A DNA stretch of 64,000 nt. Origin: Schizochytrium sp. TIO01. Taxonomy: Eukaryota; Sar; Bigyra; Thraustochytrida; Thraustochytriidae. The position numbers were made by a program, and so were the translations under genes. The notes beneath the pieces are model-generated. The model saw nothing but the letters and a program-made list of their open reading frames with translations, did no database searches and had not been told where the DNA came from. Location of the stretch: positions 642,501 to 706,500 of the forward strand of contig SMSO01000032.1 in the NCBI GenBank assembly GCA_004764695.1, read 5' to 3'. Shown here piece after piece: positions 8,791-41,604 of this stretch; positions within the stretch are counted from its first letter, which is position 1; each line of letters starts with the position of its first letter.

Positions 8791-11700
8791 TCATTTTGAA
8801 GATGTTGCTGACGACGAAACCCGGCAGAACCGCATTGTAATGGAAGGATACGATTCTTTGATCTTCGTCGATACCTCGCTAAAATTCAAGCCGCGGGTCG
8901 ATTCACCATTGATGCTCATGAGAACATCACCTGCACAGAGACGTCCACAAAGTTCCGCAGGACCCTTGGTGTTATTCTCAAGAGTCTTAAACCCAGTCAC
9001 TACAACGAGATTATTCGGTAACCTGCCCAGACGCAAACCAAGCCCATGACGAGTATCAAAACGAACCTCAAACGAAGAAGACGAGCCGTGCTTGACTTCT
9101 TCCAAAACTCGTTGTGGTGGTTCATCATCAGCATCTGATCCGCGCAAAAGAAAATTCAGTAAATCAGTTTCAAGTTCCACCTCGCCTGCGCTCAACGAGC
9201 TATCATCATCAGGACTCAACCACTGCCGTGGCAAAGGTTCCTCGGCACCATCAGAAAACCGAACAATGTATTGCCCATCACCAACAATTGCAGCTACTAC
9301 ACCCTGAAAAGCAGCACCTTCGCCACCATAAACGACACGCACTGGCGTATTCACAGGCAGAAAACGTTGGATGCGCCAGCGTGGAACATTAGCCTCCACG
9401 CTACCATCATCGAAAGCTACACGAAAGTCCGGCAAATCACCACCATCCATGACCCGAGCTAATTGCCAACGATCAGTTCTTTCATCAAGCACCTCAACAA
9501 TGTCACCACGGCAAATCTCTAGAAAGGAGCTCGAGCTAGTTGTTGCTCCTAAATGAGTAGCACTACTCTGCGCTGCACTGCTGATACTACCAGTGCTTCC
9601 ATTCTGTGAACTCTGTGCATGGGCATCATCAAGAGCAAGACCGCTGCCTGGACTGCGAGATCTGTCGTGGTGTTTTGCAGCGAGTAAATCTTCAATTCCA
9701 GAAAGTAGACGCATAGCAGAGGGCTCAACTGCGTCATCTTCATCACCATCATCGAACAAAACTGCATAAGTACCATCCAGCATGTTACGCCGCAAGACAC
9801 TGCCACAGTAGTAACTAGAGTCAAAGTCGTAGAAAACGACAACTCGGGTTGCAGGGGACAATTTCTCCTCCGAAGGCGTCGGTTGCTGTAGAAAAAGACC
9901 CGCGTAAAGCTCCAGGCGACGTGAGTCGACCTCGCGACCTGACTCGTAGCTTTTCTTCAACAAACCAGTTGTCTCAGAAGTCTCCTGATCGTCGTTATCG
10001 CCCAAGGAACCTGTCTCCCCCATCAACTCTGCTGAAGATTGAACAGTTTCCGATGGCTGAGAACTAAGTCGCGAATATCTGTGGAGGTCACCAGGTTTAC
10101 CTGATGACGCACTCGTAGCAGAATGAGTATCCTGAACCGGCTCAGACCATCCAAAAAAGCCTAACACTGTGCTCATGAAGCGACCTGACCTACGACCTCT
10201 CGACTTTCCTTTGCCACTTGACTTACGATGCCATAGTGAAGGCCGTAGTTGCAAATATACGTAGAGCAGAAGAACTGCACCGAGCAAACCAGCAGTGCTG
10301 CACAAAATAATCAACTTCCAGGAAAGAGCTGCAGCATTGAGACAAGACCGCTCCGGCACCTTACTACGGCGGCAAAACGCCATGGAAATGTCATCAAGCC
10401 CAATCAAACATGTATCGTTCGATGAACTGCTTTCTGGGCAGCAATACTGCACAACACTAGACTTGCAATCTAAGCAATCAGACTTACTAGCCAATTGAAC
10501 TGGTCCACCTGATCGTGCATGGAGTCTTTGGATAAGCGTAGGAGCATGCGTGGGAGCATCTGATTTGGTATCTGATGCAACGCAATAGTACGAGAACTCC
10601 TTTGATGCGTGGCGGCGAATTACCACATCCTCAGCTCGTGTCCACAGTCGTCCAGGTAGACTCTTGCCTACAGCACTTGCTGGATCCACAAGTTGCTTCC
10701 GAACAACTGTTTCCACGTCAAGAATATTCATTGTTGCATTCATGTAGATCACAAGGCTAACAACAAATGATTCACCTTCTCCGCTTTGGTCCTCCGACAA
10801 CTCTGTTAGAGTATCAAGTTCCACCAGACTCTTTTCAATTTCAAGAGCGCTTGCCACGATTGAATCAATGTGACTAGCACGGGCGCGCATATCCATAAGG
10901 ACACGACGATCATCGTGGTGCTTCACGTCTATGTCAAAACGAAAGCTGACCTCCAACATCATCTGCTCAAATGGGTCATTTGATTTCACGTTCGCGCATG
11001 AACCCAGGTTGCAGGGCCGCAGGCTCACCATCTCGTAGGGGCAGCCACCACTACTTCCCCCGTTGGGGAAGTACGCCTCACGGTGTCGCCTCTCAAAGCC
11101 TGGCCCACAAGCACGGTCACAAATAGACCACGGGCCCCAGGATCCAACACGGCATTCATTATCCAAAATATCCAACGCAATTTCATGCGAACTGCTTGCA
11201 TACAAAAGATCTGACGAAGCGCTTTCGATCCGAATAAGGCCTGTTCGTGTTTTTGGATCCACCAGTTCGTTTTCAGGAATTTTGAAATGCAGACGTTGTG
11301 TTGAGTTCCATGTGGACGCATCATAGCGAAGTGTCCATTTCTGGGTGAGGTGGAGACCATCATCTACCCCACTAAATACTGGCATCAGGACAGTCACACT
11401 GAGCACAACCTCGCTCCACGGCTCGGATGCAAGCGCTAAGCCGAGCTCCATGTCAGTTCCTTCCACAGTGTCGAGGCGATGGACACTTCCCAACCGGGAG
11501 AGGGCCGGTTCTTTTCCAATTTGGAAAACAACCCCTGCCCTTTTCGAGTCCACTAGATCAACCGCCATGCTGGTAACTGGTAATGAGGCGTAGCGAATAT
11601 CGCTGCTCATTACTTCATGGGAAATATGCCAGCGGCGCACTGAAGGCTGAGCAGGGTTTGCGCGTTCATCTAAGAAATTATCAAGCTTTGTCACGCTCAC

Positions 11701-14700: not shown

Positions 14701-17700
14701 GAACCACAAATCCTCACCATCAGTTAGTCGAAGTATTGATGTTGCAGGCTCGTCACCATCCATAAGAAGCTTCACATGAACTCGACCGAGAGGCCTACTT
14801 GCAAGGCGCACACTATATTCGACAGGTTTTCCGCCTTCCACCACACGTAGAACACTCAACTCACGATTGTCTCCGTGCATGGTATTAGCAGGCGCCACGA
14901 CAACTCCCGGCTGAGAACGATGCGCAGATGAGCTTTCTAGAATCGTGACTCTAACAAAAGTTGGCTCGACAGAGGAAAAGACACCTTGCTTGGAACTCGA
15001 CACCTCTAGCCAGACTTGATCCTGATGTGTGCCCTCTACAAACTCATCCAAGTATGCTTGTAAGGCAACAACCTGTTCGGTATCATAGTTTGAGCTGTCA
15101 AAACGCAAAACTGGGTCTGCGAGCTTTGCTACAGTTGCACCAGTGCGACGAAGGCATTTGAAACCAAAAGGGCATTCGCTGTTTGTTGTACAACTGCGCC
15201 GCTCATTACCCATACCGAGTACTTCAGATAAACAAGTTCCATCACGAGCATTGACACGAACGTAAACAGTGGAACCAGATGATGGCGGCTGAGTTAAACG
15301 AACGCCAATAAACCCAGCACTGCCACCCTCCACTAGTGTCAATGATGATTGATTTACCAAAATACCAGCCGTCTCGTCATCAAGAATCTTCACAGGGACC
15401 GAAACAGAGTTTGCAGAAGCTCCCATTGAAGAAAAGAATGGGTCAATTGTGCCAACATCATGGAAAGATGCAAGACGGAAAGAAAGATCAGCATTGTATT
15501 GTGCCAAAGCTTGGGTAACCCTATCGTTCACTGCCTTGACTCGAAAGCTGGCACCCTTTGACCAAGCTTGAGGTTCGATCTTAAATACTGAGGGGACCAC
15601 CTCCAACTTATCACTATCAAAAACAGCTTCGATGTGCAAGGCTGTTCTAGGTTCGGCGCCCAAGTGCACAATGACTGTTTTCCACTGACTATCAGCCTCC
15701 TTTAGATTCAACATCAAAGGTGTTGCCGACAACTCTGGTACCCGAGTAGTATGTACATTTACTAGTGCAGCGCCGCTTGTATTCATGAAACGCTCGTCAT
15801 TAGCCGCAGTCACAACCCCGCGTGCGTAAATTGATCGGATTGCAGGGCCCGCCAAGGTTGTACTCTTGAGTGCAACTGAGACGGACTGTGGCGTATTCCA
15901 GTTTTCTTTGTTGAATACTAGAGTGCTTGGGCTAAACCGGACCAGGTCAACCGCCGGAGTGAGTGCAACACAGGTTTCGAGAAGAGGGCTTTCGCAGTCA
16001 GAAAGAGCATGCGAACATTTCTTTCCTACAGCCCCGGTCAATGTGTTAACACAAACCTGGGATGTAGAGGAGCTTTCTGCCATGGCAGAGCCGCTAGCCT
16101 GTATGCGCACCTGTACTTGCTCACCATGAGGCATTGAAGACAAGTGCACGAGCAACACGCCTTCCGAATCCTTATCCACCATTATCTCGCCAGCAGCAGC
16201 TCCATTCGCGCCTGAGGTCTCCACAATAACGCCAGCAGCATCCACATGAAACAATCCGACGTAAAAAGTATCATCCTTAGGTACAGAGCACGTGCAGTCA
16301 TGTGCAGAGCCAATGCATGCACCTTGTAGCACGCGGCCGTCAAACCCACGACCCATACACACGAGACCTCCAGCGTAACCACCAAGTGCTGGTAATCCCT
16401 CAATACGAACTCGCGTCTGCTTGCCAGGTGAGCCATTTGGAAAGACTACAACAGGGCTTGCTGTTTCGCAAAGAAACGGGTCGTGCATGAGCAGAGCATG
16501 AGCTCTACTGAAACCTTCCCGAATTGAGCGCTCTCCAACATTAGAAATCTTCACACTAAATTCTCCTGCGGACCGTGCAAAGGTGAAGAGATGCTGCCCA
16601 GGGAGAAGTTTCAGTAAAGGTAACACGGCATCCTGATGAACTTGAATAGCAACATCCGTACCACACGCAGATAGGCGCTCAGGCATGCTATCGTTTCCGT
16701 CGACAAGGCGTCGATTCAGGTTATCAAGGGTAGAGCTAACAAGATCGACCATTGACACCAAAGTCTCGGTATCAGATGCGCCCTCGAGTGCAAATGCCGC
16801 GGCCCCAAGCCGAAGAACAGCATCTTGTGAGGAAGATGGAAGCCTAGCGAGCAGGGCTAAGATTGGGCTTAGACGCACAAAGGTACTATTTCCGCGAAGA
16901 GTCTCAATAAGGCTGGCAAGAAAAGCATTGGCATCGTCAGCAGCCGGAGCAAAATGTTCGCACCTAGAGCCGTAATGGGATGGAGGGCACTGGCATACGA
17001 ACCGAACAGATTTTGACCAACTAGAATCCGCTTCACAAGAACCCAAAGGACCGCAGTCTGAATCAGAAGTACACATGGCCCCATGTTTGGAAGATGAAGC
17101 GGCAGTTTGCAAATGAGGATACAGCTCTGCAGCCCAAATAGAGTAGAGTTGCAGGACTCGCTCCGGCTCGGAGCTATGACTCGCAAGCTCGCTTTGCATG
17201 TACTGCGCCAAGCTACTACTGCCCAAGTCCAAAGATGATGCAAAAACTTTCGTAGACGCCACACATGCTTCCTCTGCTTGTGTAAATATCTCATGTTTGG
17301 GCTTTGAAACATGTGATCGAGCGAGACCCAAAACTACCCATTCGCCCGAAGGGATCACCGTGTCGAGATTGTTCAACTTGGTGTCAAAGCCGTATATAAT
17401 TGGAAGCCTCTCCGAAATACTACACGGTGAGACCCCTTGTACATAAGGGACCAGGGCGAATGAATATTCCACCTCGGTGTCGTGCTCGAGCCCAGACCAC
17501 CCATCCATACGTGCATGTACTGTGGAGACCGCACTTTGCATTGAGGTCTTGGAAAGAGAGATCTGGCCTGGAGCAGGTGCAACGTTCAGAGCAGAAATGA
17601 GGCCATTGATACTCTGATGCATATCAGGAGAAACTGGAAATGCGCCCTTTGCATATCTCTTACTAGACGAAGTAGCGCGGATGCGATGCTTAGCCAGATG

Positions 17701-20700
17701 GAGCCACTGGTGAGGCACCACGAGAGCATCTTTACCCAATGAAATTACCACGGTGGAATTGCTTACCCAGCGACAGATGGAATTTGTGCCTAAAGCAGTT
17801 GCAGTCGTTACAGTTTCTAAGGTGAATCCATTGCAGATGGAGTATTCTTCGGACGTCCCTGAAAATAAGGCTGAGCAATCTGAGCTACGGCTTTCGATAT
17901 CAACAGCTTGATCAAAGGTGACGACGAGGTGACGGCCTGAAGACGTCATATTCACGGAAACAAGGGTAGGAGCGGGACCCCATACCGGCGACGCAACTGC
18001 AGCAACCAGCACCGGAGTACTGAGAAGGGGGCAACATAGGTCAGCAGGAGATTGCGGTGAACAAGTCATCGACGTACCCGGAATATTCATCATTTGACCA
18101 CGGAGCATCTCCCTTTCCAGATCAGGATGCCCCGCACCCCACATTGAGGTCTCACAAGTCTTGCTTCGAAGTAGAGGACCATTGTAATTTTGATCCATGC
18201 TAGTTATCTCAAAGTTTACTTCTTGCAAACCATGCGCAGCGATTTCTTCCGAAACTTCGGGAGCCGCATCGAACAATTCCACAACTTGTGGCGTGGCCCA
18301 GTTTTGGGGTTCAAACACAAGTTTGTTGGCGATGCGCGCAGCAGTGCGACTGTGCGATTCTCATGAGTGACACGACCAGAACATGGATCTTCATGGCGGA
18401 TCAAGATTGTGCGCGGTGGAACGTGGACTTGCACCATGACCTCATCGATTGGTGCAGATGTGAGACTCAGGTTGACAAAACTAGGTTTGCCCCCTGATAC
18501 AGTCACGCGATCGATACTCAATGCAAGGCCAGCCCAGTCCTTATCCATGGTGACAACTTCGATACCAGGGCCCGCACGCTCCTCCATATTATACAAGGAA
18601 TCACCGTCACAATGAGTGCTCGGGTAAATGACACCTACTGAAGGTTTGCCTCCAGCAGTTGGAAGTGTTTTGGCTAACACAGCAATAGTCTGAGACACAT
18701 TCCAAGATGCGCGATTAAACACCAAGGTAGTCGGAGCAACTGTAACCTCTGAAGGGCTGTGAAGTTGTACCTCAACAGATTCTGCTGTAGGCATGCTTTG
18801 AAGCGCAACTTCAACATGAGCCGGTGCCCCTGATTCAGACAAGTAAAGCATATTTGTATCAAAGATACCCCAGTGGCCTCTTTGTCACCAATAGAGATTG
18901 GAAGAGATCGACGTACCTCATTGTATGTTGGATCTGAACTCTCAGCAATATGCTCAAGACTAGCTGCTCCACGAGCAAACGCAAGATGGGCGTCAAAGGC
19001 ATCTTGGGCAACTGAAATTGTAATGGTTTGATCCACATTCCAATTGTTAGAGGTAAAGTTCACGACGGCAGGGTCCACAGTCACTCCCAAAGTTTGCAAG
19101 TCATTGTCACTACAACGGCAGTTTGCGTCCAAACGAGGGTTGCATAACTGACCAGCACACACTGTCATTGTAGGTAAAACAAAAACGCGAACTGCATATT
19201 TGCTTTTGTGCAAAGGCTCGGGCAAACTTGCGAGTGAGATTGAGTATTTGTACTTTCTCAAACCTTCTGACGAGTCTCCCAATGCAAGGCTTGACTGTGA
19301 CAATATAAGACCCTTTTCTCGGTCTGACGAAGCCCGCACATCAGCCAAGACCGAAAGATTTTCGTACAAGACATCTTTGTTGATTTGGGGAAATTCTGTT
19401 GACACGAAGGTCTTGCTTTCTAGAAATACTCCAGCAACAAGATTGATCCAAGACTCAACAGAAACCTTTGCTGCTGATGTACCGTGCGATTGGCAAGGCA
19501 TCACAACTTCAATAGACTGCCATGTATTCCATGATGATGGGGAAAAAGTAAGTTCAGAACGACTGAGCGATACCTTGGGGCGTTTGCTAGACCCAGAGCA
19601 GCCCCATTCTGAGAACATGGCCGCTTGAACAGGAGTTGCGAAAAAGTGAATCAATTTACCACTTTGGCCCGATCCAGAAGATGGAAATCGTGTTGATAGA
19701 CAGTCTATGTCTTGACACACAGCATACTCCAACAAACCTGAGCCCAACCAACGGAGAATCTTTAAAGTTTCCCATGAGTCACTTAACACAAAGAAGCCAA
19801 GTGCGTCCTTTGAGCCCCATGCAAGAAGCGACGAAGGGACACTGTCTTCAAGACCCAAAATAGAAGCCTCTCGCTTATCATGATACACAGTCATGGACGT
19901 AAACAAGGCGCAGCTATTGGAAGGGTCTACATGCTCGTTGCGAGCATTGACAACAACATTTGCTACAGGCTTACTTGCGAGTTTCACACGAATCGTGCCT
20001 GCATTGCCTTCTCCGCAGCCCTTCAACTGACTTGTTTCTACAATCAAATGTGCTTTGCGGCCGTGAGCGGGAATACTGACTGCTACACTTGGCAAAGCAA
20101 TAGTTTTATCGTCGGCCTCGTGGCGCAGAGCAATCCACGCTGCCCCCCATATGGCATCAGCAAACTCTAATGCTTCAGGGTTTTCTGAAATGATGAAACG
20201 AGCGGGGTCGTTACCAGGCGACAATAATTCCGAGGTAGGAGAAATCTGAAGACGAGAAACGCCAAGGTCGATACAATCACAGGTGGAGTCACACGATTGG
20301 TCACTGAGCGTACCGTCAGTATTCAGACAAAGCGCAGAAGTTTGTAGAGGCGAAATGCGAATAGACTTATCGAGATGGTCAGCTAGCTTCACAGCATACT
20401 CAGTTTCGCCCTTGCCCTGACCTAGATATAATGTTCGTGGCGCAATGTACACAGCACCATCATCGTCATCGCCAATAGACAGTGGGAGATCCCACGTAGC
20501 TTGAAAACCATCCAGGCTTAGTACATGACTCAAGATGGACGTTTGCAGTCCATCATGACGCATATCTTCCAAAGCTGTGACTGTGATATTAGTCGATGCG
20601 CCAAGTGAGAGTTCAATATCTGTAGGAAAGACATTCACCATCTTTGAGGCAGCAAGAATTGACAGATGAAAGGTAGGTTTTTCGGAATATCCAAGCGAGT

Positions 20701-26700: not shown

Positions 26701-29700
26701 AGCTGAAAAGGACAACCGCGGAGGTGAGACACGAACTCGGTCATTGAGAGCACAAAAAATATCCTCGTTATTGATCGCGCTGCCCACACAATCGGCATCT
26801 GACCTGCACGGAGTCACACGCGGCCGCAACTCGCCAGAAACAGCGGAGATACAGTGGCCGTTTGAGATATTGAAGTCTACCGTCACAGCCCGGTCTGCAT
26901 GCAGTGCTGATACTTGTGGTTTGCGAGCAAGCCGCACCTCTACAGTCTCTACCAGACCATCTTCTGAGACACTGACGGTATGTTTTGAGAGAACGATACG
27001 CGTTGAGGCATCTTGAACCACCTGGACAGTAAGTTCTTCAACAAGCTGATGATAAACGTTGTCAGGGGAAACAGCCTCGTGCAGAATAACAGCAACGTAC
27101 TGATCGGCCTCACCAACATCTGACTGCACAGAAACTCGCGCCTCTTGAGGATGATTCCACGACTTGGGACCAAATACTAACTGTCGAGGCTCCACTGCAA
27201 TACCTGTGGCGCTCATGGCAAGATTTACAGTAACGGGAGCCCACGGGCGGCTAGCCAGTGATACGTTGTATGTCGCGGAATCAGCTTGCGCATCGAGGTG
27301 CAAAAGAGGTTTAGAAAACTCAACAGCTGCAATATCGGCATCTTCAATCTCAATCAATACGGCGCACTCACTTGCCTCAATCAAACTAACACCATTCGGA
27401 CTAGCCATGGTATCCACTTGAAAGCATGTGGCACGGACGAAGCGGTTATCGCGGTCACTACTCATGCTCAATCCAACCTTGGACATGTGCACAGGCGCTT
27501 CCACACGCTCGTCCACGAATACGCGAAGTGTTACTGTTTGAGGAATATGCCAGTTGTCCATGTCGAAAAACAACGTCTTGTCGTTCATTGCCAAGTATGC
27601 ACCAGTTCCCTTGACACATTCAACACTGCGCCCAAGTGCTTTATCTGTGCTTGCTAACTCACAATCCATATTCGTAGCACAAGGCCCGAGGTGAAATACA
27701 GGTCCGTTTCGGCGATCGAGACAGAATCCGTCATATTCTGTTAAATCTACACGAACAAGAGCACCCTCGCGCGGGGAAGCAGCTAGCCAGACATCAAAGT
27801 AAACTTCCTGCATAGGATTTAACTCACTGAGACCTTGTACGCGCGTGGTACTCATTACGAGACCAGGAACATCAGAGTCAGTGATGCGCATTGGAACTGG
27901 TTCAACAGAAAGCCCATGATACAGAAAGTCCTTTGAGCCAACCACAAAATGGATTTCCTCAAATGTTGCCTTTGAGTCAGACGTGAGCATCAGACCATCA
28001 CAAGGAATATGCATAACAACGCTACGTGGAGTCATCCAATCGTCCGGTGTAAACACCAACTGCGGAGGATTGAAGATTGCTTTTCGCGAAGCATTAAAAC
28101 GCATGTACACATCTTGCGCTGGAGCCAATGACGAATTTGCAAGGCGTACAACAAGCATAGTAGACGCTCCTTCTGAAAGGTCAAGCGAAGTTGGAGTAAC
28201 AACAAATTGTGGTTCCTCGCCATGGGACTGCGTATCGTTGACGAAAACCATGACAACAGGGGCATCTGCCTCTGTAAACGTTGGATCAGAAGATGAAACC
28301 TTGTGGTACAGCTGTACCACTTGCAAAAAGTCTTCTTCGACCCTGTCATCAATTGCTCGAACCGTAACACGTTGCGCATCTCCCCAGTTTGCCGAAGTGA
28401 ACTCCAACACTAAAGGATCCAGTTCAATATCCTCTCCAGGAGGTAATATCACACTAACTGAGACAATGCTTGTTGGCTCCCTGGCAAGTTTAATCGTGTA
28501 AACACCAGCAGACCCCCCCTCGGTAAGCTCAAGTTTTGCAGGGCGGATAACTAAGGCCGCAGACTCATCCGTGCCATGCGTGACATCATGAATCACAACA
28601 TTGATCGTATCAGCATCCTGATCATCCTCGTCCACAACAAATCTCAAATCCTTCGACTCTAACCGGTGGCGGATAACAACAGTATGAGGGTCATCCTCTA
28701 AAACGCCGTCATCCCGTGCATATACCTGAACATACTGAGAAGTATTCCAGTTCCCTGGTATAAAGAAGATCTCTTGAGGAGATGCGTCAAGTTGGTCCCG
28801 AGGTGGGAGGACCACAGTCGCTGTGACAGCTGAATCAGGTTGCCGATCGAGTTTAATGCCATACTCTCGTACAGTACCATCTCCTTCCCAGAGCTCAATG
28901 CCAGTGTCAAAGATCACTAGATGGCCACGCTCCTCTTCGCTCAGTTCCATCAGATTACGACTCTTTGCACGGGATGTGCGGACATTACGAAGAAGCACCG
29001 TTTCTGCGTCTGGGTGATCCGCAGTGATATAGATATCGTAAGAAGTGCTTGCCTCAAGACCTTCAAGCATTCCCTCTTGTTCCTGGCTTCCACCCACGGC
29101 ACGTACCATCGAGTAAAACGCATCGTCAAAGTCGCTGTCAGCACATGCAAGAATGTCCTCCTTGGAGGGCTGAGGGCTGCCTGCCAACAATGCATAGAGC
29201 CATACCTGCATGGTTTGTGAGGCACGGAAACGCACAGCCACAGAATCGTCCGTGCGCTTACCAGCAACAACCCGTTCGAGGACGGCGCCGGCATTGCGAC
29301 CTTCAGCAAGATCATCACCAGCTTCTGCCGAGCTTGAATTTGCTGATTCAATTAAGAGAGAATTATGTTGCTTACAGTCACAACCGCCACGCTCACCGCG
29401 GTTATTGTAGCACCAGCCTCCATCAACATCTCGGTCAATGCAGCGATAGTGTGCAACACCCTTGTGGTAAATAGGGAAAACGCAGGCGTCACCTTGTGCA
29501 GCAGCTCCAGTGCCTGTGGTAACACACTTGGGCATTTGACGTGAAGATGCTGCAGGTAAACTTTCATGAGCGTCACCAGTTTGGGAAGTAGGGTTTACGC
29601 CGCTGCACTTACAGCCTGCAATATTTCCATTCACAACACAAAATCCTTCTCCTCCCCAACCAGATCCAATGCACTCGTGATGTTCCTGGCCGTCATACCA

Positions 29701-32700
29701 AAAGGGGAACGAGCAGGGCAATCCGGCTTTGGCTTCCCCCAAGCCATTGGATGCACATTCTACCCGGGGATGAGCAAGATCACCAAGGGAAAGCTGATCA
29801 AAGTCAACATTGATCTCCTGCCGAGCTTTGCTTCCAGAAAATGGGCCACACTTACAGCTTGCCCACTTTCCGTTCCGCATAAAGCAGGAGCAGGAGGACG
29901 CCACGCACGTACATGGCTCATGGCATTCAACTCCAGCCGTGAGAAATGTACCTCGTTCACCATCAGAAACACAAATAGGTGGCATAGTGGAGCTAGAGTG
30001 TGCATTAACCTGAACGGACGCGCAGCTGGGGGCGCGCATCGACATCATGTTTACACCAAGCGCATGTAATCTCTCAACAAGATCCTTTGCGATCTGACTA
30101 TGTAATTTTTCGAAGGTTTCACAGAATGAACGACACTCCAACATAGTTGGGCATTGAAAAGTTAGGGTCATTTGAATACCCCCCTTGAATCCTCCAACTG
30201 AGGCAACCTTTCCGGATCGGCGCGAGACAACCTCAGTCGCCAGGGCTTCGAAAAATCCTGGCATGTGTGCTTTGCGCTGGGTTTGTGAGGCGGGAACCAT
30301 ACCAAGATAAGCCTCGATAGTATGAACAATGCGCCTCGCACGACTAGGCTCAATGGTGCGGATCCCGCCGAGCCATACATCAAGAACATGAGTCCCCACG
30401 CTCGGGCTGCTAGATGAGTCCATATCATGTTCAGTCATAGATGTGTTCAAAGCCTCGTTTTTGGCAGAAAAGTCGCCCAGAGTCGGCGCTTCTGTTGAAA
30501 ATGAGGCAAAATCTTCAAAGCCTTCAAGGCTGGCAAGGATTCGTCGACTTGCGACCGAATAAGAACTCTGAACGTCAACATACAAAACATCACGCTGAGT
30601 TCCATCGGTAACAGTCTGATCAACAAAGCCGTCTGAGGTAAACGAGTACTCTGATGGCCCAGTGGCCTCAAATATGGTTCCTGATGCAAGATCGAGCCCA
30701 CTCCTGCGAGACAAGAGTGGAGCAAACCGAATGGTTTCACTATAAAAGCGGTCCATCACTACAGTTATAGAGCCACTCACGTCTGCCTCTCCCTGGACAT
30801 CAATAACACCATAAAGAGGCATTGTACTTTCATCCACAGATGTTGCGGCAACCTCAAGCGTACCTGTTAAACGAGAAGTGTAAGTTCCTGTCACAGTAAG
30901 AGTACCCGAAGGTTCTGCGTCAGAACCTGGATGAACAATGCCTTCGTTCAGTAAATCACCTTCGATAGTCGCATATCCAAGCAAAGTACCACCTTCCATA
31001 ACCGAAAGACCACCAACATCATCATCAGAAATTTCATTCAGGTCAGCCAAAAGGAAATCAGGTACAATATCACGTATGACCTGTGCAGACTCCTGAAGAG
31101 CAATCAAAGCTCCATCAAGCTCAAGTGAGCCATGAACTTCAATTTCACCTGTACTGATGATATCCACCGCGGCAATCAGAGATGCGTCCTGATCAATCAT
31201 AATGGTTCCAACTGAAATAATTTGGGGATCGGCATCACTGGTCGATGACAACTTCGAGACACTGTCGGATGTGAAGATTAACTCAGCACTAGGCATCACA
31301 AAGATGTCCCGGGTCGCTGTCAAGCCACCGTCAATCTGACAACGCGCACCAGTCTGTAGAGAAAGTTCACCAGTTTTTAGTAAAATGTCATGAAACACAG
31401 CACCCTTGTCACTAGAGCCTGTTCCAGCAGCATCATTAGCAATAATCACAGATCCATCCACTTCCATAAATCCTTGGAAGTCTGCGCTTGCACTGAGTAA
31501 GAGTTCGCCTACTACAGTCAAAATAGCACTGGAGGCCGATGCACAAGAGCCACGCATGTCAACAAAGGCTTGCGAATCAATGGTCATTGATCCAGCAATT
31601 TGCACAAAACTTGAGACTGAGGAAACAAGAGTAGCATTGTCAAAGATGGTAAGCTCACCCTCTGCATCAATAATAAGCTCACCTTCATTTACAAGCCATT
31701 CGCCTTCCCGGACTTCGGCAAGTCCCACAATAGTTGCCTCACCTGTTGGCTGAACAATGAGACTACCTGTGGACTCGACACTACCTCCCAATTGCGCAAC
31801 AGAGGCCAGTGTGACGTTTCCGTAGTTGCGGAAGGTGCCCGAGTTTACGAACTGAGCACTTGTAGACTGACCCACGCCAGACCCTGATCCTGATGAAGAA
31901 AACACAAGATTTGCGCCAGCACTGATCATCATATCTCCTGCGTTCTCGGTAGAACCTTGGAGGGTGAATGAAGAAGACCAGAATGCTGCTGAGCCCGTTT
32001 CATGAATTTCCATGCCACCACGGAGCAGACCATCACCAAGGAAGTCAACTTTGCACCCTGCACCGATAAGGATTGTTCCGGCACCACCTACCTCGCCGTC
32101 GAACTCAGCATTAGCACCTAAAAGCTCCATTACACCATCGACTTGCGTTGCACCAGATGAAATTACAGTATTCGTAAACCTTGTATCCGCATCAGTGGTG
32201 ACAAAAAGGGAGCCATCATTTCGCATAGTCGCACCGATGTAGGCTTGTCCACCAAGATAAAGCTGTGCTGAGTCTACAACCGTCCATTCTGCTGATGTCT
32301 GAGACACTGTGACCTCACCTAGTAGCTCCCACTCACTAGATTCAGCTAGGACTACGGCACCAAATCCTTGCACCCGAGACTCTGTTGTGGAAGTGCATTC
32401 TGCCGATGCACAAATAAAAACGCTCGATGCGTCGGTACCTGTATCAAGAATACCATCGTGAGCAAAAGAACCCGCCATAGTGACATTGGCGTTATCTAAA
32501 TAGACAGCACCCCCTATGTCAATAGTCACATCACCGGTGAAGCGTGCCGTACCACGAAGGATCACAGCGCCCGAGAAGGAAGCCGATCCTTGACTTATAA
32601 GAGTGGAGCTGAAAATTGATGGTGCAGTGTTTTCTGAAGCAATCAAAAGCCGGCCACGGTTAAGAGTGTGGCCTCTACTCCGCAACCGGCCTTTAGCGAC

Positions 32701-35700
32701 AAGAGATGCATCGTTATCAATCGATAAAACACCATCGGAAACCCACAACGCACCTTGGTCAAGGGTCACACGAGTGGCTTGCACCACAACCACAGCATCA
32801 TGTGCAACGATTACGGAGCCACCAATTGCGCTCGATCCAGAGAAGGTCAGAACACAGGTGTTGTTTACAGCCAGAAGGCCATCCAAAACTGAACTGTGAA
32901 GATTGAGCTTAGAGTCTGAGGATGTACACGCCATTGTAGAGCCTTCCTTTGCTTCAAGACTTCCAGTGCTTTGTAGTTCTGTACCCTCCATTGTAAGGGT
33001 GGCAGTACGAGCCACAATGACTGTACCTTTGCTGGAAAGCGCAACGTATTGGTCTGTAAGAGAACGATATGCAGTTCCTGTTACGAGATCCTGCGCAAAG
33101 ATGGAATTACCCATAAAACGAAGTTTACCACGAGAGGCAACAGAGATTTGAGCGTTTTCATCTGAAGAAAATTCATTCTCAAAGACAAGTATGCCACCAT
33201 CTTCCACGCTAACAAATGCGCCCTTTGTTTGATAGTATATTCCATCAAAATATACGGCTGGTGAGTACACATCAATTTGCGCTCCATCGACAGTAGTAGA
33301 TCCAGTCTCTGTTACTGCAAAGTCACCGTAGAGGACAAGTGAGCTCCCGTAACCCAACTCTAGTTCACCATCACAAATGAAGAATGAGTCTTCGTCAAAA
33401 GTCGAAGCACCAAAGATTGCGACGCCACCTCCTTCCTCAACTGTGATGGAGCCAGACACTTCGAGCAAAGCTTCAAAGGTGACGTTGCCAGTGGAGGCAA
33501 CATGAAGGGAGCCACGTACGTATACATCTTGTGAGTAGATTGTCTCATCAAGCAACGTAAGGTTACCATCAATGGTGATATTACCAGCGCTGTCGAGCGC
33601 GCGTACGAATTCGACTTGGGCAGTAGGGCCAATGTACATGCGACCAAAATTCTGCATGGGCCGGTCAATCGAGGCAACACCATGAATAGCGATATCAGCC
33701 TCATCAGCAACGAAAAGTCCACCAGTATCTAGAATACGGCCATTAAAGTCCACAGAAGAGGACCTTGAAACATCAACTTCAACGCCATCAGCCTGGGCAA
33801 AGGCAACTGCGAGCGCACCCGCAGCAGATCCAGATGCCGTAGATAGCAAGCTCGCCTCAGGGGTTTGGTCGCGTCGTTGCCAACCATGAACCTGTTGCAA
33901 AGAGCGTCGCAATGTGCGTGCGGAAGTACGAGTCTCCAAGCGAACGCTAAGACCATCTGTAGAAGTTAATTTCAGTTGTCGAGTCAGAGACTCCAGTAGT
34001 GTAGCTTCGCTTGGGAAAGCCTCGCATGTGTGCACGGGAAGTGTCCACTCTACACCAACTCCTGCAGAGGCACCCATGTCAAAACGAACATTGGTTGTGT
34101 ACACACGATCGGGGCAAGAGAGCAGGCGACGTCCGGAGGCACTAGCCACGTCATACTTAAACAAGTTACGCTCAAACTCAGCGAGGATTGTTTGGGAATC
34201 AAGGCCAATGTGCACTCGACCAGTGTTCACCACATCACCTCCAACATTTGCAGAACCACCAAAGTATATCTGCCCATTGACTTTAAGAAATCCAGCACCT
34301 GTATACATGCCTGCGATAAGAACATTGCTTGACGACCCAACAATAAAACGCCCCTCGTTGACTACACGGTGAGAAAGCAATGTGTGACCCTCAAAGCTCA
34401 CAGTGCCATAAACAGTGAGGGCACCAGTGTGAACAACCGAGTTCATAAACACCATTGACTGACCTTGAGGAATGACCAGGTCGCCATCAGCAAACACTGG
34501 ACTGGTAAACACGGTCGTGCCAGACGAAGCAGCTCCGCCGGGACTCGAACTGAGTGAGCGTCGTGCCATAACAAGGTTCTCTGGATATTCAACGGCAATA
34601 ACTCCGCCACTTGAAAGGCGAACTTGACCATCCACCCGAAGACGCGAGGCAGTGTCAAGGAAGGCTCTTACTGCAGCTCGGGTGCCGACAACATGTATGG
34701 CACCTGATAGCTGGGGTGTATCCCGGTCACAACCCTCCTTTTTGTTGCTAGGTGCAATGACAACCTGAGAGTCTTCAATAGAAAGTACCGAGCCTTCTGC
34801 GAACTCAAGTGAGCATGTACCAACTGCTGTGAGCGTTGTGTCACCAACTAAATTTATGCGAGCACCACTTTTAGCTCGCATAATACCACGCACAATTACC
34901 TGTGCGGAAAGTTGTGTCTTGCTCTGAAGAAGTTGATACTGTAAGAGAGCTGCTTTGTCAACAAGTTCATTGACCAGTGAGGTCTGGACTGAGAGTGTTT
35001 TAAGGCCAAACTCGTTTTCAACACGAGGTTGTCCTTCAAGTTTAACAAAGGCCTCTGAGCTAGGGACCTCCCAAACTGCATCAGAACCAACACGCAGGAA
35101 ACCCCTATTAATAAGACCAAAGGCAGAGCGGAAGGTGCCAGCAGTAATTTCCAGGAACCCATCGTTAAGGATCCGCGCATCAATGGTGGCTGAGCCCTTC
35201 ACTTCGAGGTAACCAAGGTTACGCAAGCCGCACTCTCGTCCAGAAGAAGCGCAGCGAAAAGCCAAATCTCCCTCGAGAACCATACTTGCACCAGGAAGGA
35301 TGGTCAGCTTGGTGCGAGGTGACAGCAGGGCACCAGCGCCGCGCTCCACCAGTCCATGGCCAAAGAGGTCAACTCGCGCAAGATCGAGAAGTGGCATAAT
35401 TGCAGAGGAGTGTTCAAGGTCCTGCTCCTCATGGTGATCATCATCGTGAAGATCGCTTGAAGATATTTCCAAATCGCCTAGCACAACGAGAAAACCACGG
35501 TCAGAGCCCGTTAGTGTAACCGAGCCACCTAGACGGAGCAGACCACCGGGAAGAACAACTATTCCCTGCTCTAGATGTACCGAGTCAGCGTCCGTGAGGT
35601 CAAGTATGCCACCACGACCAATAACACTAAGGCGCCCGATCCGAATGCTACCGGTCAAGAAAAGGGTCTTCGTACTATCTCGATCCTTCTTGGCAGCACC

Positions 35701-38700
35701 AAGAAAGAATCCATCAAGAAGCACGCGGTTCATTGGATCGCGGCTACCTTCCACATGAAATTGGCTTTCCACCATAGCGCTAAAGTCGTAAAAGCTCATA
35801 ATTACATGAGCAAAAGCATCAATACTGGGGCCCAGATATGTGGATAGCCGGCAGCCCAACTGGGCTTGGCATAACACCTCTGGCTTTGAAAGTCCAGTGT
35901 AGTCAACAAAACGGAAAAAGTCCCCATATTGATATTTGTATTCAAGGTCATCGTACTGAGCAAAATCAACCTCTGACAGCTTATGGAGGCTGTCTAGATG
36001 CTTCATGAGATAACGAGGACCACTGAAGGTATCCGCTGCACCATTGTATAGCTTTGCATACATTTCCGCCCATGTCTGAGCTGCGGCAGAGCCTGGTACG
36101 AGCGCGCTATCCACACCTGGCAGAGTGTACGCCAGTATAGATCCTCCAACCTGTTCTGCGTTGCTTCTGCACGCACCGCAAGCACCACGGTCACAGTCAT
36201 GAGCGGGGCAATTGAGAATAATAGGGACACCAACATCAGAGATAAAACTGCCGTCGTCGCAAATATCATCATTAAGATGTTGCTCACACGAGGTATACCC
36301 AAGTCGGGCAGACGCGCACTCGCCGTTTGTGAGGCGCTTGCCGTTACAGTCCAAAATCCAGTCCCCCTCTGCAGCTGGGTCCGAACACACGGCCAACACG
36401 CGATCACAAAACCCAGTCCGACAATCTTCATTGTCCACGCAATGCAGACCGTTCAAACATGGGCCACAAAACGGACCACCGCAATCGACATCAGTCTCCT
36501 CGCCATCCTTTACTCCGTTTGCACAAGTTTGTGCAATACATTCGCCGTCAGGGCTACAAAGACCTGATGCACAGTCACGATTGAGAAGGCAGGTAGCCTC
36601 CCCAATCTCTTGACATGGAGAGCACTCTGGGCCACCGCAGTCCGGGAAAGTCTCGAAGCCGTTCTGAACTCCATCAAGACAAGATGGTGGTCTACAAGTA
36701 GAGTCAGACGGGGCACACAAGAGTGGGTGAGTACAATCTGTATTGGCGCTACAAGAAGCTCCAGTAAGGCATCCATCGCAATTGGCGCCACCGCAATCAA
36801 CATCAGATTCATCAACATCTTGCACCCCATTTGCACAGTGGCGAGGCAAGCAAGTATATGAAACAGGAGAACAGATATTAGAATCGCAGTCCGTGTTTGC
36901 CTTGCACTCGCGACCTACTGCACACGGAAGACACGAGTCACCACCACAAACTCCGCCTGCACACTGTGGTTGAACGCAACGTGCGGCGTCTTCATCACAA
37001 ATAAGATCACCATCACAATCATCGTTGCCGTTGCAAGTACTGAATTCTGCACATGCCTTTTCGCAGTTAGGACCACCACAGTCCACATCTGCCTCGCCGT
37101 TATTCATCACGCCATCATTGCAGGTTCCAGGGATACAGAGGTTGTCCTTGCAGACCTTGCTTGAACAGTCTGAGCCAACTTGGCAGAGAGACCCGTCAGC
37201 GCACGGGGCGCAATCAGGCCCACCACAGTCAACATCCGTTTCGGAGCCATCTTGGCGCTCGTTGAGGCAAGAGTTTTTCACACAAACACCAGCCCCTCCA
37301 CAAAGAAGATCATCCGCACAATCCTCGTTTACTGAGCAGGCCATGCCCGTCTGATTGCATGGTGAGCATTGAGGGCCACCACAATCAATATCGGTTTCCT
37401 CCTGGCCTTGCTTGCCATCACGGCAACTTGAAGGCATCAATAAGAGTTTACGCGCCTGCAGGTCAGAAGGTAGGCACTGCTGCATTAAAGGATCACACTG
37501 GAGTGGGATGGCACAGTCGCGATCTTTCACACACGTCGCAAGAGGAGTTCTGCACGGCGCACAATCTTGGCCACCACAGTCAACGTCTGTCTCATTTCCA
37601 GACATGACCCGATCAAAGCAGGATGCCAACGAGCATATCTCACGTTGAGGGTCGCATAAAAGACCAGATTCGCAGCCGTGGTCTTGAAGGCAGTGAACAC
37701 CTACCGGGCACGGTGCACACCCACCAGCGCAGTCAATGCCAGTTTCGTTGCCGTTTTGGATTCCATCATTGCACTGACGAGGAAAGCATCGACCTAGTCG
37801 AGGATCACAGAAGCCACTCTTGCAATCATTATCTTCAGCACAAAGGTGAAGATTGGTACATTCAGGACAAAATGGACCACCACAGTCTGTATCTGTCTCA
37901 AGACCATTGCGAAGACCATCTGTGCAGGTAAATGGCATACAGATGCCACGCTCCTCACTACAAAGTTCTTTGCAATCACGAACACTAAAGCACTCTTGGC
38001 CATTGTCACACGGGCTACATTCATGACCACAGTCAAGTCCTGTTTCGTTACCGTTCAAAATACCGTCAAAGCAAGTGGCCGGTGCACAAACTTGGCGAAA
38101 GGGTTCACACAGAAGACCTGAGGCGCAATCACGGTCTCCAATGCACCCCACACCTTTGGCGCATGGAGCGCAACTTCCGCCACAATCAACGCCCGTCTCG
38201 TTGCCATTAAGCACACCGTCTGTACAAGCGGGTGGGACACAAATGCCCATGTCCAAGTCACAGGCACCACTAAGACAGTCTGCGCCGGACTCACAGAGCT
38301 GTCCATCCTCACAAGGTGGGCAGTCCCCAGAACAATCCACATCAGTTTCTGAACCATCCTGGCGACCATTCTGGCAGCTCAAGGGGTAACACATGCCTTG
38401 GGTCATGTCACAGAAAGACTCGTCAGCATTGCAATCGCGTGGGAGCTCACATGGGTCACCAATTGTACAAGGAGGGCATTCAGGACCACCACAATCAGTA
38501 CCTGTCTCGTTTCTGTCGCGCCGTCCATTTCGGCAGGTAGCAGCAATACAAATGCCGTCGTGACAAGCATGACTAAAACAGTCTGAGTTACGTTCGCAGA
38601 GGAGTCCTACATCGCAAGGTGTACATGATCCACCGCAATCAACGTCGGTTTCAAAGCCATCAAGAACCTTGTTTGAACAATGCGATTCAAGGCAAATACT

Positions 38701-41604
38701 ATTCACTTCACAACAATGCTGGTGCTGGCAGTCTGTATGAGAGAGACAGGTTGCGCCGTCTGCACAGCGGCCACAAACTGGGCCGCCACAGTCTACAGCG
38801 GTTTCCAAACCGTTCTTGATTCCGTCAACACATGATGCGTCCAAGCAAATGCCCTGTTCGTGATCACATAGCCCACTGGCACAATCGGACGCAGCTTCAC
38901 AGTCCCGCCCGGCAGCACATGGGCCACAGATGTTGCCGCAATCAATGTCAGTCTCGTTACCATTCAGGACACCGTCAAAACAGGATGAAGGCATGCAAAG
39001 ACCTGAATGGGAGTTACAGTGACCACTCTTGCAATCTCTGTCGAGATGACACTCTGCTCCATCATCACAAGGAAGACAATCAGGGCCACCACAGTCCGTC
39101 GCAGTTTCATTACCGTTAAGAAGATGGTCTGCACAAAGCTGATTGAGGCAAGTACTAGTACCCGGGTCACAAACGCCACTAATACAATCTGCAGCAGCTA
39201 AGCAGTGACGTCCATTTTCACATGGCAAGCAATCTGGTCCTGCACAGTCAATGTCCGTCTCATTTCCATTCAAGATGCGATCACGACAGTGAGCCGCAAG
39301 GCAGACACCCATGTCTGCATCACATGTACGGCTCAGGCAGTCGGAGTCTACTGTACAGGATGAGCCAGCAGCGCAGGGTGCACATTCTCCGGCGCAATCT
39401 ACATCGGTCTCATCGGCATCCTGCACGCCATTGCGGCAGGTATCTGGAACACAAACGCCCAGCTCATCATCACAAGCATTTGACTGACAGTCCTCATCAA
39501 CTTTACAGAAACTACCGACGGAGCATTTTTGGCATCCGCCTGAGCAATCAACATCGGTCTCATTTCCATCGAGGATGCCGTTGCTACATGAAACAGCAAG
39601 GCAGTGACCCTCCTCGGAGTCACAGATGCCGGAGGCACAGTCAGAATCATTGTCACACTGCTTCGCATCTGCACAAGGTGAGCAATCAGGACCGCCGCAG
39701 TCGACATCAGTCTCAAAACCGTCGAGGATGCGGTTTGTGCAGTGTGCAGGCAAACACACGCGTCGGTGTTCGCAACAATTCTGTGAATCACAATCGTCGT
39801 TTGACTCGCAGGTGGAGCCATCAGGGCAGCGACTACAAGCCGGTCCACCGCAATCCTGATCGGTCTCAAGACCATTTTTGCGACCGTCTACGCAAGAGGC
39901 ATCCAGGCAAGTGCCAAGGTTCTGGTCACAAAGACCGCTGAGGCAGTCCGAAGCAAGCGAGCACTCCTTGCCTGCGGCACAGGGCCCGCAAATATTTCCA
40001 CAATCAACATCTGTCTCGTTTCCATTGAGAATGCCATCGCGGCAGGTTTGCGGCATACAGAGACCTGACTCTGTGCTACAAAGGCCGCTGAGGCAATCTT
40101 GATCAGAGACGCACTCCAGGCCATCGTGGCAGGGTGGGCAAAAGGCACCACCGCAATCAACACCTGTTTCGTTGCCATTGAGAATACCATCGAAGCACGA
40201 AGTGAAAGTACAAATGGAGGCCTCCGGGTGGCAACTCACCGGGGCAAACGGTGCATCGAAATCATCAAGCTGAGGCATACTCTCAACACAATCTTCAGGC
40301 TGAAGACAATGCGCGCCTAGTGCGCACGGCATGCACTGGGGTCCACCACAATCCACTGCAGTCTCATTCCCGTTTAGAATCCCATCCATGCAAGAACGAG
40401 GAACACAAATACCTGTGTCGGCATCGCAGGCACCGCTGAGACAGTCCCTGTTAGAAAGGCAAGACTGGCCATCCTCACAGGGCGGGCAGTCAATACCACC
40501 GCAATCAACGCCAGTTTCGGCGCCATCGCGCACACCGTTGCCACAGGAGGCGTCAACGCAAATTGCGGTTTCAGGATCACAGAGCCCTGACTGACAATCA
40601 TCGTCAGTGTCGCACTCGTAACCTTCCGAGCACGGTGCGCACAAGGGACCTCCGCAATCGACGTCTGTTTCATTTCCAGACTTGCGCCCATCTGTGCATG
40701 ACGCTGGCAAGCAATGGTGGCGGAAGTCTGTCTCGCACCTTTGCGAAAGACAATCCTCGTCCACTTCACATCCACCTCCCTGTGGACACGGCGTACACGT
40801 GTCACCACCACAGTCGACGCCTGTTTCATTAAAATTCATGCGTCCGTCGCGGCATGATCTCGGCAGACAAACCCGGAAGTGCTCACAGCATATCTCTGAC
40901 CTACAATCGTAGTCCGCACGACACATCTCGCCCACACGGTGCCTCGTGTCACGAACTCTCCACATCGCCTCCTCATTTTCTTCCTCATAAGACTCATCGA
41001 AAGCTCCCCTGTTTTCTCCTATTAAGTCTCCATTCGGTGCACCGTCTGTTGCGGTTGAGTTCTGAATGGGATGAGCATTGGTTTCACTTTCTGGGTCGGT
41101 GTGGACACCTGCATTCTCCGAACCCTCATTGTGGTTCTGGTTCGCATCCTGTGCCGGTTCTAGTGCGGTGACAGCCGGGTTTTCTGGATCAGGACGATCC
41201 GATTTTGCGTTTGTGGCTGAAGACTTAATCTCATTTGCAGCCTCATTTGGGTTTGGTCGTGACTCAAGTCCGGCGTCGAGATTTGGATTTGAGTTTGCTA
41301 TGTTTAAATTTGAATTTGGATGCTCTTTGCCGGCGAGCTCGATTTCCTCCTCCCCGCGGTCACTCTGGGCATCTCGCCAGTACTCGGGGGTCTGATCCGT
41401 CTCTACACCACGGCCTACTGTTTCCTCTGCCGCCAGGACCGCCGCGCACAGCAACAGGACCGCCGCCAGCGCCGCCAAGAGCGCCGCACGGGCGCCTATG
41501 CCACCGCGGCGCCGCCGCTCATGCCAGCCTTGGGGTGCTTTGCGTGCCGGTGCTGCCGCTGGTACCGTCACTAGGGACGCCATGCGGTCGCCCTCCGACA
41601 CCAT
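8791..41604 (-). CDS. giant modular type I membrane protein (~10,940 aa), three apparent frameshifts
   Basis: Four minus-strand open frames (41604 to 24646; to 18674; to 18216; to 8791) join into one product. An in-frame TAG at 41644-41646 precedes the first ATG at 41604, whose product has a basic HERRRR stretch and then a hydrophobic signal peptide (residues ~36-59). Module order, with approximate residues: acidic Asn-rich linker 60-227; DCGG Cys-rich units 228-1745; beta-solenoid 1970-3660; Cys-rich and two FN2-like modules 3870-4080; FN3-like 4098-4215; Calx-beta-like NWN repeats 4225-7805 and 8528-10146; REJ-like and EGF-like island between them; TSP1 at ~10150; one TM helix ~10426-10452; cytosolic tail ~486 residues with three Tudor-like barrels and a PDZ domain. 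Many NxS/T sites fit a secreted ectodomain. A cell-surface adhesion or attachment receptor is inferred. Each frameshift is repaired by one base, so an assembly error is likelier than a pseudogene. Confidence 0.8.
8815..9083 (-). other. C-terminal PDZ domain of the giant protein
   Basis: About 88 residues at the extreme C-terminus fit the PDZ fold. There is a GLGLRLG carboxylate-binding-loop-like stretch, then VVTGF, a hydrophobic helix start, LCAGDVLMSINGES (the typical GD.l..iNG strand) and a final TMRFCRV strand. PDZ domains bind short C-terminal tails, so this end probably anchors the receptor to a submembrane partner. The family match is strong by pattern; the ligand is unknown. Confidence 0.8.
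9210..9850 (-). other. three Tudor/agenet-like barrels in the cytosolic tail
   Basis: Three ~48-residue units share a V.V.Y/D....Y..G.V...  ..Y.V.FDDG.E...... core. The first (9700-9850) has VVVFYDFDSSYYCGSVL and VLFDDGDEDD. The second (9365-9520) has DIVEVLDERTDRWQLARV and VAFDDGS. The third (9210-9360) has VRVVYGGEGAAFQGVV and VRFSDGAEE. These features are typical of Tudor-like SH3-type barrels. They lie between the membrane helix and the PDZ domain, so they would be cytosolic. Tudor barrels usually read methylated Lys or Arg in the nucleus or in RNP granules, so this place is unusual. Confidence 0.65.
9959..9976 (-). other. acidic dileucine sorting motif in the tail
   Basis: The tail carries SETTGLLKK, which fits the [DE]xxxL[LI] signal read by AP adaptor complexes. 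It lies ~95 residues after the membrane helix. It suggests endosomal or lysosomal recycling of the receptor. Such short motifs also occur by chance. Confidence 0.4.
10249..10329 (-). other. single transmembrane helix of the giant protein
   Basis: A ~25-residue hydrophobic run (core KLIILCSTAGLLGAVLLLYV) follows Cys-rich juxtamembrane sequence. It is followed at once by a strongly basic stop-transfer stretch (WHRKSSGKGKSRGRRSGRF). With the N-terminal signal peptide this gives type I topology, N-terminus outside. Confidence 0.85.
10995..11160 (-). other. thrombospondin type 1 (TSP1) module
   Basis: The module starts GSWGPWSICDRACGPGFERR, with the WxxW pair, the CxxxCG core and the basic R..R strand that layers with the tryptophans. 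It ends in LRPCNLGSC. TSP1 modules bind glycans and matrix proteins and are typical of adhesion receptors. It sits between the last NWN repeat and the juxtamembrane region. Confidence 0.85.
11165..16020 (-). repeat. second block of Calx-beta-like NWN repeats (about 12 units)
   Basis: Each ~100-140-residue unit has the pattern: l.v.EG....y.v.L.s.P...v.v.v, then a p..l.F...NW..PQ.V.V.A.DD core, then s.d..y....  v.V.D.D.ag. Examples of the core are ENWNTPQSVSVAL, NNWDVPQVVRLEARD and DNWSLPQFVSVTKLD. The acidic DD turns resemble Ca2+ ligands of Calx-beta sandwiches. Several units carry an inserted Cys loop with the form GxC...C.....DC....C. Confidence 0.75.
16020..18180 (-). other. REJ-like region with an EGF-like module
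   Basis: From ~17995 downwards the sequence reads PTLVSVNMTSSGRHLVVTFD, then paired Cys, CRWVSNSTVVISLG and LHLAKHRIRA. This matches the start of the REJ (receptor for egg jelly) domain of polycystin-1 and sea-urchin REJ proteins. An EGF-like module follows at 16955-17085 (CTSDSDCGPLGSC ... CQCPPSHYGSRCE), and then a mostly helical stretch and more Cys pairs to ~16020. No GPS autoproteolysis motif is evident. The REJ assignment is by pattern only. Confidence 0.55.
18315..18320 (-). other. apparent 1-base deletion, frameshift 3
   Basis: Between 18317 and 18318 one missing base (a second G on the minus strand after TTG) would join SPTNL of the upstream frame to VFEPQNWATPQ of the downstream frame. 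That restores the standard NWN core exactly. The site is not a homopolymer longer than two. Confidence 0.7.
18868..18871 (-). other. apparent 1-base deletion, frameshift 2
   Basis: A CCCC run on the plus strand. One extra base here turns the minus-strand frame from GDKEATG into GIFDTNMLYLSESG, the expected D.D.aG...l.lsE boundary between two NWN repeats. A homopolymer miscount is the simplest reading. Confidence 0.7.
24715..24719 (-). other. apparent 1-base deletion, frameshift 1
   Basis: A TTTTT run on the plus strand (AAAAA in the gene). One extra A joins GDAVLEEK to IHTGIIYLSAQSSGDSLYD, which gives the usual A.DD...E..h.g...l...s.D..Y segment of an NWN repeat. Without it the frame ends at a TGA at 24646-24648. 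Confidence 0.75.
28960..29310 (-). other. fibronectin type III-like module
   Basis: About 115 residues begin VLERVVAGKRTDDSVAVRFR, have QVWLYALLA in the middle and end in LEGLEASTSYDIYITAD, which resembles the L.p.t.Y.v.v.a strand of an FN3 sandwich. It separates the FN2-like pair from the first NWN repeat. The match is moderate. Confidence 0.45.
29365..29990 (-). other. Cys-rich segment with two FN2-like (kringle-related) modules
   Basis: The first FN2-like unit has LPCSFPFWYDGQEHHECIG, a GFCVV strand and CKC. The second has DACVFPIYHKGVAHYRCID, a GGWCYNN strand and CDC. The C.FPF.y.G..h..C....  WC....C spacing fits fibronectin type II modules, which bind collagen or choline lipids in animals. 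A further CTC/CSC/CKC Cys-rich stretch lies just N-terminal to them (29820-29980). Confidence 0.65.
30600..35700 (-). repeat. beta-solenoid-like stalk (~1690 residues)
   Basis: Short ~20-25-residue rungs repeat the pattern G.l.v.gs..f.g....., often as G.L.V..G.V.F.G or N.G...I...A. Examples are GSLHVASTGNVTFEALLEVS and NDGSLFVTTDADTRFTNTVI. Cys is rare, in contrast to the flanking blocks. The pattern is that of right-handed parallel beta-helices, as in filamentous adhesins. A stiff rod that holds the DCGG head away from the membrane is the likely role (inference). Confidence 0.65.
36370..40923 (-). repeat. DCGG Cys-rich repeat array (~29 units of ~51 residues)
   Basis: Each unit reads C....DC.sg.C....g.C.p..C.dGi.nG.ETdvDCGG..C.pC..G. 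The invariant points are the DC near the start, NGNET and DCGG. One unit near 36930-36980 is degenerate and lacks NGNET. Variant features recur every seven units: a CCEH/CCEV pair in units 1, 8 and 15, and a CGNICGPCAAG block in units 6 and 13. The array is extracellular, and the conserved Asn-Glu-Thr is itself an N-glycosylation sequon in many units. Binding function is unknown. Confidence 0.85.
41427..41499 (-). other. signal peptide of the giant protein
   Basis: Residues ~36-59 counted from the ATG at 41604 form a hydrophobic Ala/Leu/Val helix (ARAALLAALAAVLLLCAAVL) after a basic stretch, and end in a small-residue AA/E cleavage context. The n-region is long. The second ATG at 41583 would shorten it by seven residues. 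Confidence 0.75.

Follow-up and report, generated by a model that had tools for sequence, protein, structure and literature searches.

A single gene without detectable introns for a modular protein of about 10,900 residues

Four long open reading frames (ORFs) follow one another on the minus strand of the 64,000-nucleotide window analyzed here (positions 642501-706500 of its contig, in an assembly of 64.06 Mb and 37 contigs), and the question raised by this locus is whether they are pieces of one very large gene and, if so, what kind of protein that gene makes. An earlier reading of the letters by themselves (referred to as the sequence-only reading) had proposed a single intronless gene for a modular, membrane-anchored receptor. 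The analysis reported below revealed that a single gene without detectable introns encodes a giant protein of ~10,900 residues, whose parts, relatives, and probable role are considered in turn.

The four frames are arranged end to end from 41640 to 8791: ORF1 (41640-24646, 5664 residues counted from a GTG, with the first ATG at 41604), ORF2 (24649-18674, 1991 residues), ORF3 (18851-18216, 211 residues), and ORF4 (18318-8791, 3175 residues). Codon-usage segmentation trained on other ORFs returned one unbroken coding call between 41430 and 8872, gave no assignment to the two ends of the gene (41604-41431 and 8871-8791), and placed three direct frame switches in it, all of them -1 (Table 1). The frame order was identical in a second codon scan trained on ORF1, in which low-signal windows were scattered and were denser near 19.8-19.2 and 18.2-17.2 kb. 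The joined path amounts to 10,935 residues and ~1,173 kDa, in agreement with the ~10,940 residues and ~1.2 MDa first proposed, and the claimed lack of introns also held up, with none detectable along the coding path, where a stop-free intron of a length divisible by three could escape. At joint 1, short GT..AG candidates were considered by eye, outside any systematic splice-site scan, and rejected, as they would delete a conserved repeat strand that the shifted frame retains.

Continuity across the joints is further indicated by a repeat of ~120 residues (the NWN repeat), for which a hidden Markov model (HMM) was built from the giant protein itself and matches both sides at each joint. The two matches at joint 3 are complementary halves of one repeat (model positions 2-66 and 58-106), while at joint 1 the upstream match ends at model position 88 and the repeat pattern carries on, by eye, in the downstream frame. 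Joint 1 is also bridged by P0002, a protein model of 6,793 residues and not DNA, in which the last part of ORF1 and the first part of ORF2 match adjacent stretches; P0018 does not supply a second bridge, since in it the best-matching stretches for either side of the joint overlap each other. Taken together, the continuous coding call with three direct switches and the repeats running across the joints support the proposal that the four consecutive frames form one protein.

What broke the frames was assessed against 19 control loci, each 10 kb long, taken from this assembly, with coding runs over 150 bases considered on both strands. Direct switches numbered 4 in 67,953 coding bases at these loci versus 3 in 32,559 in the giant gene, rates that do not differ at these numbers (p 0.69). 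The switch at locus L031 is also -1, and directly after it the new frame gives a RIO1 match (2.4e-50) that begins at model position 36, the frame before the switch having no RIO1 match of its own; the switches at L028, L032, and L035 run in the opposite sense to those of the giant gene, that of L028 lying in low-complexity sequence. Comparable switches thus occur elsewhere in the assembly, one of them right at the start of a RIO1 match, and assembly indels are therefore the most likely cause of the three breaks. Weighing against this are the clustering of all three within 6.4 kb of a 33-kb gene and their common sense, as would suit a truly broken gene, either a pseudogene of recent origin or a gene that the strain's own frameshifts divide into two or more shorter products. 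Such a gene is nevertheless improbable, given that coding-like codon usage flanks the breaks on both sides, that the four frames hold no further stops, that breaks are not demonstrably more frequent here than in the other coding sequence sampled, and that one control break sits at the RIO1 match. Programmed -1 frameshifting would likewise account for three out of three shifts being -1; yet the standard slippery heptamer was not seen by eye at any of the three joints, and similar breaks in both senses lie in other genes of the assembly, which leaves this mechanism next to no probability. Assembly indels are the better explanation, and no mechanism for joining the frames is required.

Judged by their sequences, relatives elsewhere share much of the giant protein's unusual order of parts. 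Protein searches yielded 1 relative (P0001) among 2,560 scored candidates, 16 among 981, and 3 among 804 (P0002, P0018, and P0010, one of them being the query of that search). P0002 is 35% identical to its query over 73% of the query's length, and P0018 is 70% identical to P0002; both are unnamed entries of ENA and carry DCGG units, a solenoid-like part, FN2, and NWN repeats, to which P0002 adds a signal-like start (by eye) and an FN3-like segment. Unlike the giant protein, both end inside an NWN repeat, without TSP1 or tail, and P0018 starts inside the DCGG array. The two end at a similar point within the repeat, possibly a splice donor. Among the relatives found, P0010 is the one that is compact and has a PDZ-like end; it shares DCGG units, the solenoid-like part, FN2, NWN, and, by eye, a signal-like start and a membrane span, but a single NWN repeat was detected in it and TSP1 gave no match, against ~37 repeats and TSP1 in the giant protein. 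Its FN2 block (score 249, shuffle maximum 68) and PDZ (52, maximum 42) exceed the shuffles in comparison with the giant protein, whereas the Tudor part (31, maximum 43) and the FN3-like segment (33, maximum 38) do not. P0010 is recorded as Batrachochytrium salamandrivorans BASA81 and stands alone in its cluster; this species label may reflect contamination.

Other relatives share the repeat itself: P0008 and P0015 hold NWN-type repeats, with 60 and 18 matches, respectively. P0001, an unnamed protein of 3,962 residues, resembles the giant protein in having 15 NWN-type repeats followed by TSP1 and, by eye, a membrane-span-like stretch, but it begins with subtilase and EGF modules, contains ten TSP1_spondin stretches, and shows neither fn2 nor PDZ in Pfam at E 0.1. 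Juxtamembrane kinship between the two was rejected (score 34 against a shuffle mean of 37).

For the NWN array, its own HMM gave 39 matches, of which two pairs are probably single repeats, so that the array first described as ~38 repeats stands with a count of ~37. In a scan of 26 repeats, no match to a Pfam family reached E 0.01, and the 11 families they did match at E up to 1 do not include Calx-beta; about 12 further matches of the array were covered by whole-ORF Pfam scans instead of one by one, which gave no Calx-beta either. A suggested HMM check for Calx-beta was thus negative at the Pfam level, though the repeat model (predicted local distance difference test, pLDDT, 94.7) resembles the Calx-beta domain of the Na+/Ca2+ exchanger NCX1 in a tie with other immunoglobulin-like (Ig-like) sandwiches. 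The sequence match to Calx-beta reaches only E 0.75, ranked below four unrelated entries, and a weak alignment gives the two an acidic edge motif in common. The acidic columns at the repeat edges are conserved and are putative calcium sites.

The cysteine content of the repeats follows a pattern of its own, which was noticed before being tested. Counts in the last 12 repeats alternate 4,0 all along, and the alternation is weaker over the whole array. In the set defined by regular expression (12 of 38 entries), none are adjacent (p 0.0066; lag-2 pairs, p 0.0009), and among entries carrying 4 or more cysteines (15 of 38), 1 adjacency occurs (p 0.0019; lag-2 pairs, p 0.0024), the partial match ORF2_727 being left out and the joint 3 halves counted separately. 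Similarity between repeat bodies follows no such spacing (0.230 for lag 2, against 0.218 for lag 1 and 0.231 for lag 4). Cysteine counts near joint 1 are 4,0,4,1,6,2, then 1 and 4 in two matches; the series is 4,0,4,0,6,2,8 in P0018 and 1,4,0,6,2,8 in P0002, and each of the 15 repeats of P0001 has at most 2. The array is interrupted by a region previously described as REJ-like/EGF, in which Pfam gave only weak matches, to EGF_2 (E 1.5) and to Swi3 (E 0.0093), neither of them reaching the cut-off. REJ was not supported: two pieces of the region were listed with their matches as far as E 5, and it is absent there, although the HMMER filters drop most weak matches from such a list.

Toward the N-terminus, Pfam likewise gave nothing above cut-off in the DCGG and solenoid-like parts, nor in the NWN part as a whole. 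The signal peptide of the sequence-only reading is supported by a signal-like hydropathy peak, and its DCGG array is borne out by 28 units, kept from 31 matches of a regular expression after three second matches were dropped. Alignment of 27 of them, leaving out the irregular unit at 40243-40401, has 10 invariant columns, 8 of which are cysteine. The best structural model of the unit has a pLDDT of 85.9 (70-72 for the other four) and its best of 17 PDB matches is at E 2.2, while Dickkopf-1 appears among PDB profiles at E 0.68 only, behind Bm4233 at 0.27. The putative beta-solenoid is called from its sequence pattern alone. The FN2 module, also predicted earlier, is above cut-off in Pfam (PF00040, E 1.8e-7, 31.4 bits versus 22.2), with weak PDB matches to MMP-9 (E 0.0025) and MMP-2 (E 0.0055). 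Of the FN3-like part, similarity to a P0002 segment stands above the shuffles (89, maximum 44), whereas no Pfam FN3 match was found in it. The stretch before FN2 scores 53 against P0002 (shuffle maximum 50) and 41 against P0010 (maximum 48).

The C-terminal modules fared as the sequence-only reading had described them. TSP_1 reaches 23.6 bits (cut-off 21.6) in a 279-residue piece and 20.1 in the whole of ORF4, while TSP1_spondin, at 37.1 bits versus 41, is below cut-off in both. In the hydropathy profile of the giant protein, a single strong membrane span stands out close to the C-terminus, besides two weaker stretches (1.88 and 1.86); the tail after the span comprises 484 residues. Within it, Tudor_3 lies above cut-off (36.8 bits versus 25.8), as does PDZ_6 (27.7 versus 27), and PF00595 scores 22.6 bits in ORF4, under its cut-off of 23.2, and 29.1, over it, in a search of the genome. 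Aside from Pfam, PHROGs (three pieces) and Rfam (the window) gave no match, and NCBIfam nothing but matches far below cut-off.

A search of the same genome with the last 796 residues returned at least 18 matches, 1 of them the query itself; among the 17 others, the PDZ end accounts for 2 (at 40 and 32% identity) and the Tudor-like modules account for 15, and none covers the span or the TSP1 part of this query. The Tudor-like module looks common inside the cells of this organism because tandem arrays of it, in long open frames, occur at two (L011 and L014) of the four matched loci that were inspected, each on a single strand. By eye, L011 also carries EF-hand-like sequence.

Table 1. Features of the giant gene and its frame breaks (window coordinates, except for control locus L031)
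Feature	Position	Strand	Remarks
Whole coding stretch	8791..41604	minus	ATG at 41604, stop codon ends at 8791; ~10,935 codons in four frames
Signal-peptide-like hydrophobic N-terminus	41413..41604	minus	peak 2.83 at 41487 (Kyte-Doolittle, 19-residue window)
DCGG cysteine array	36376..40863	minus	28 units of ~51 residues (one irregular) and degenerate stretches
Beta-solenoid-like region	~30574..35646	minus	pattern in translation; collinear with P0002; no Pfam match
FN2 block	~29389..30018	minus	Pfam fn2 match 29623-29715; further copies degenerate, by eye
FN3-like segment	~28945..29289	minus	resembles P0002 segment; no Pfam FN3 match
NWN array	11155..28935	minus	~37 Ig-like repeats of ~120 residues by own HMM; break at ~18177-16174
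Region interrupting NWN array	16174..18177	minus	weak matches only; earlier REJ-like/EGF part
TSP1 domain	10996..11154	minus	Pfam TSP_1, TSP1_spondin
Transmembrane span	10246..10329	minus	hydropathy peak 2.45 at 10314
Tudor-like/SH3-like modules	9214..9843 (lower limit approximate)	minus	two Tudor_3 stretches, best 9703-9843
PDZ domain near C-terminus	8821..9054	minus	Pfam and PDB PDZ matches
Joint 1, overlap of two open frames	24649..24733	minus	switch at 24718; spanned by P0002 protein model
Joint 2, overlap of two open frames	18677..18884	minus	switch at 18870
Joint 3, overlap of two open frames	18219..18360	minus	switch at 18352
L031 frame break	L031 4764-7015		directly before RIO1 kinase match

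Neighboring genes in the window encode a PA28 proteasome activator C-terminal domain (44321-45106, minus strand, E 1.8e-38), a 994-residue protein with a glycosyltransferase family 28 match (50200-53184, plus strand), and a 661-residue protein ending in a TFIIS/Med26 helical bundle (5867-7852, plus strand), which is convergent with the giant gene.

Among known systems, ADGRV1 (VLGR1) is a giant surface protein with many Calx-beta-type repeats, a build like that predicted for the giant protein. It differs in being a seven-pass receptor with GPS/GAIN, whereas the giant protein has one strong span and no GPS or seven-transmembrane domain among the Pfam matches of ORF4, which sets it apart from an ADGRV1-like adhesion G-protein-coupled receptor. 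No comparable architecture was found among the open-access papers listed, a part of those retrieved.

The order of parts along the protein, namely an N-terminal hydrophobic stretch, modules of an outside type (cysteine arrays, FN2, and TSP1), a span near the C-terminus, and then modules of an inside type (Tudor-like and PDZ), suggests that it is probably a single-pass type I adhesion tether, stiffened by calcium and ending in a scaffolding tail inside the cell. Briefly, substrate or matrix would be bound by the modules farthest toward the N-terminus (cysteine array, solenoid-like part, and FN2), the ~37 Ig-like repeats with their conserved acidic edge positions would form a calcium-stiffened stalk, and the 484-residue tail may connect the tether with scaffolds in the cell cortex. 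That the protein is instead a structural one, either secreted or bound to the wall, or a sensor whose ligand role differs, is less likely, though this has a real share of the probability. Cysteine arrays and solenoids are also found in wall and matrix proteins, and no ligand is known, both of which count against a tether; the strong hydrophobic span followed by a long tail with intracellular-type modules, on the other hand, speaks against these alternatives.

Should the organism be a thraustochytrid, its attachment apparatus, the ectoplasmic net, is where the adhesion tether would be sought first. A 2025 proteome study of Aurantiochytrium limacinum describes the identification of ectoplasmic net proteins as a first step, and the words PDZ, fibronectin, thrombospondin, and Calx are absent from its main text (PMC12221091). 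A bolder and rather unlikely proposal is that the giant protein is the founding member of a class of protist megadalton surface tethers, calcium-stiffened, built on an Ig-like repeat lacking in Pfam and arranged partly in plain/4-cysteine pairs, with a Tudor-PDZ tail, which in thraustochytrids would serve as the core ectoplasmic-net attachment receptor. The locus would add a repeat family outside Pfam together with a giant-receptor architecture and, should the host be a thraustochytrid, would provide a concrete candidate for the attachment of these cells.
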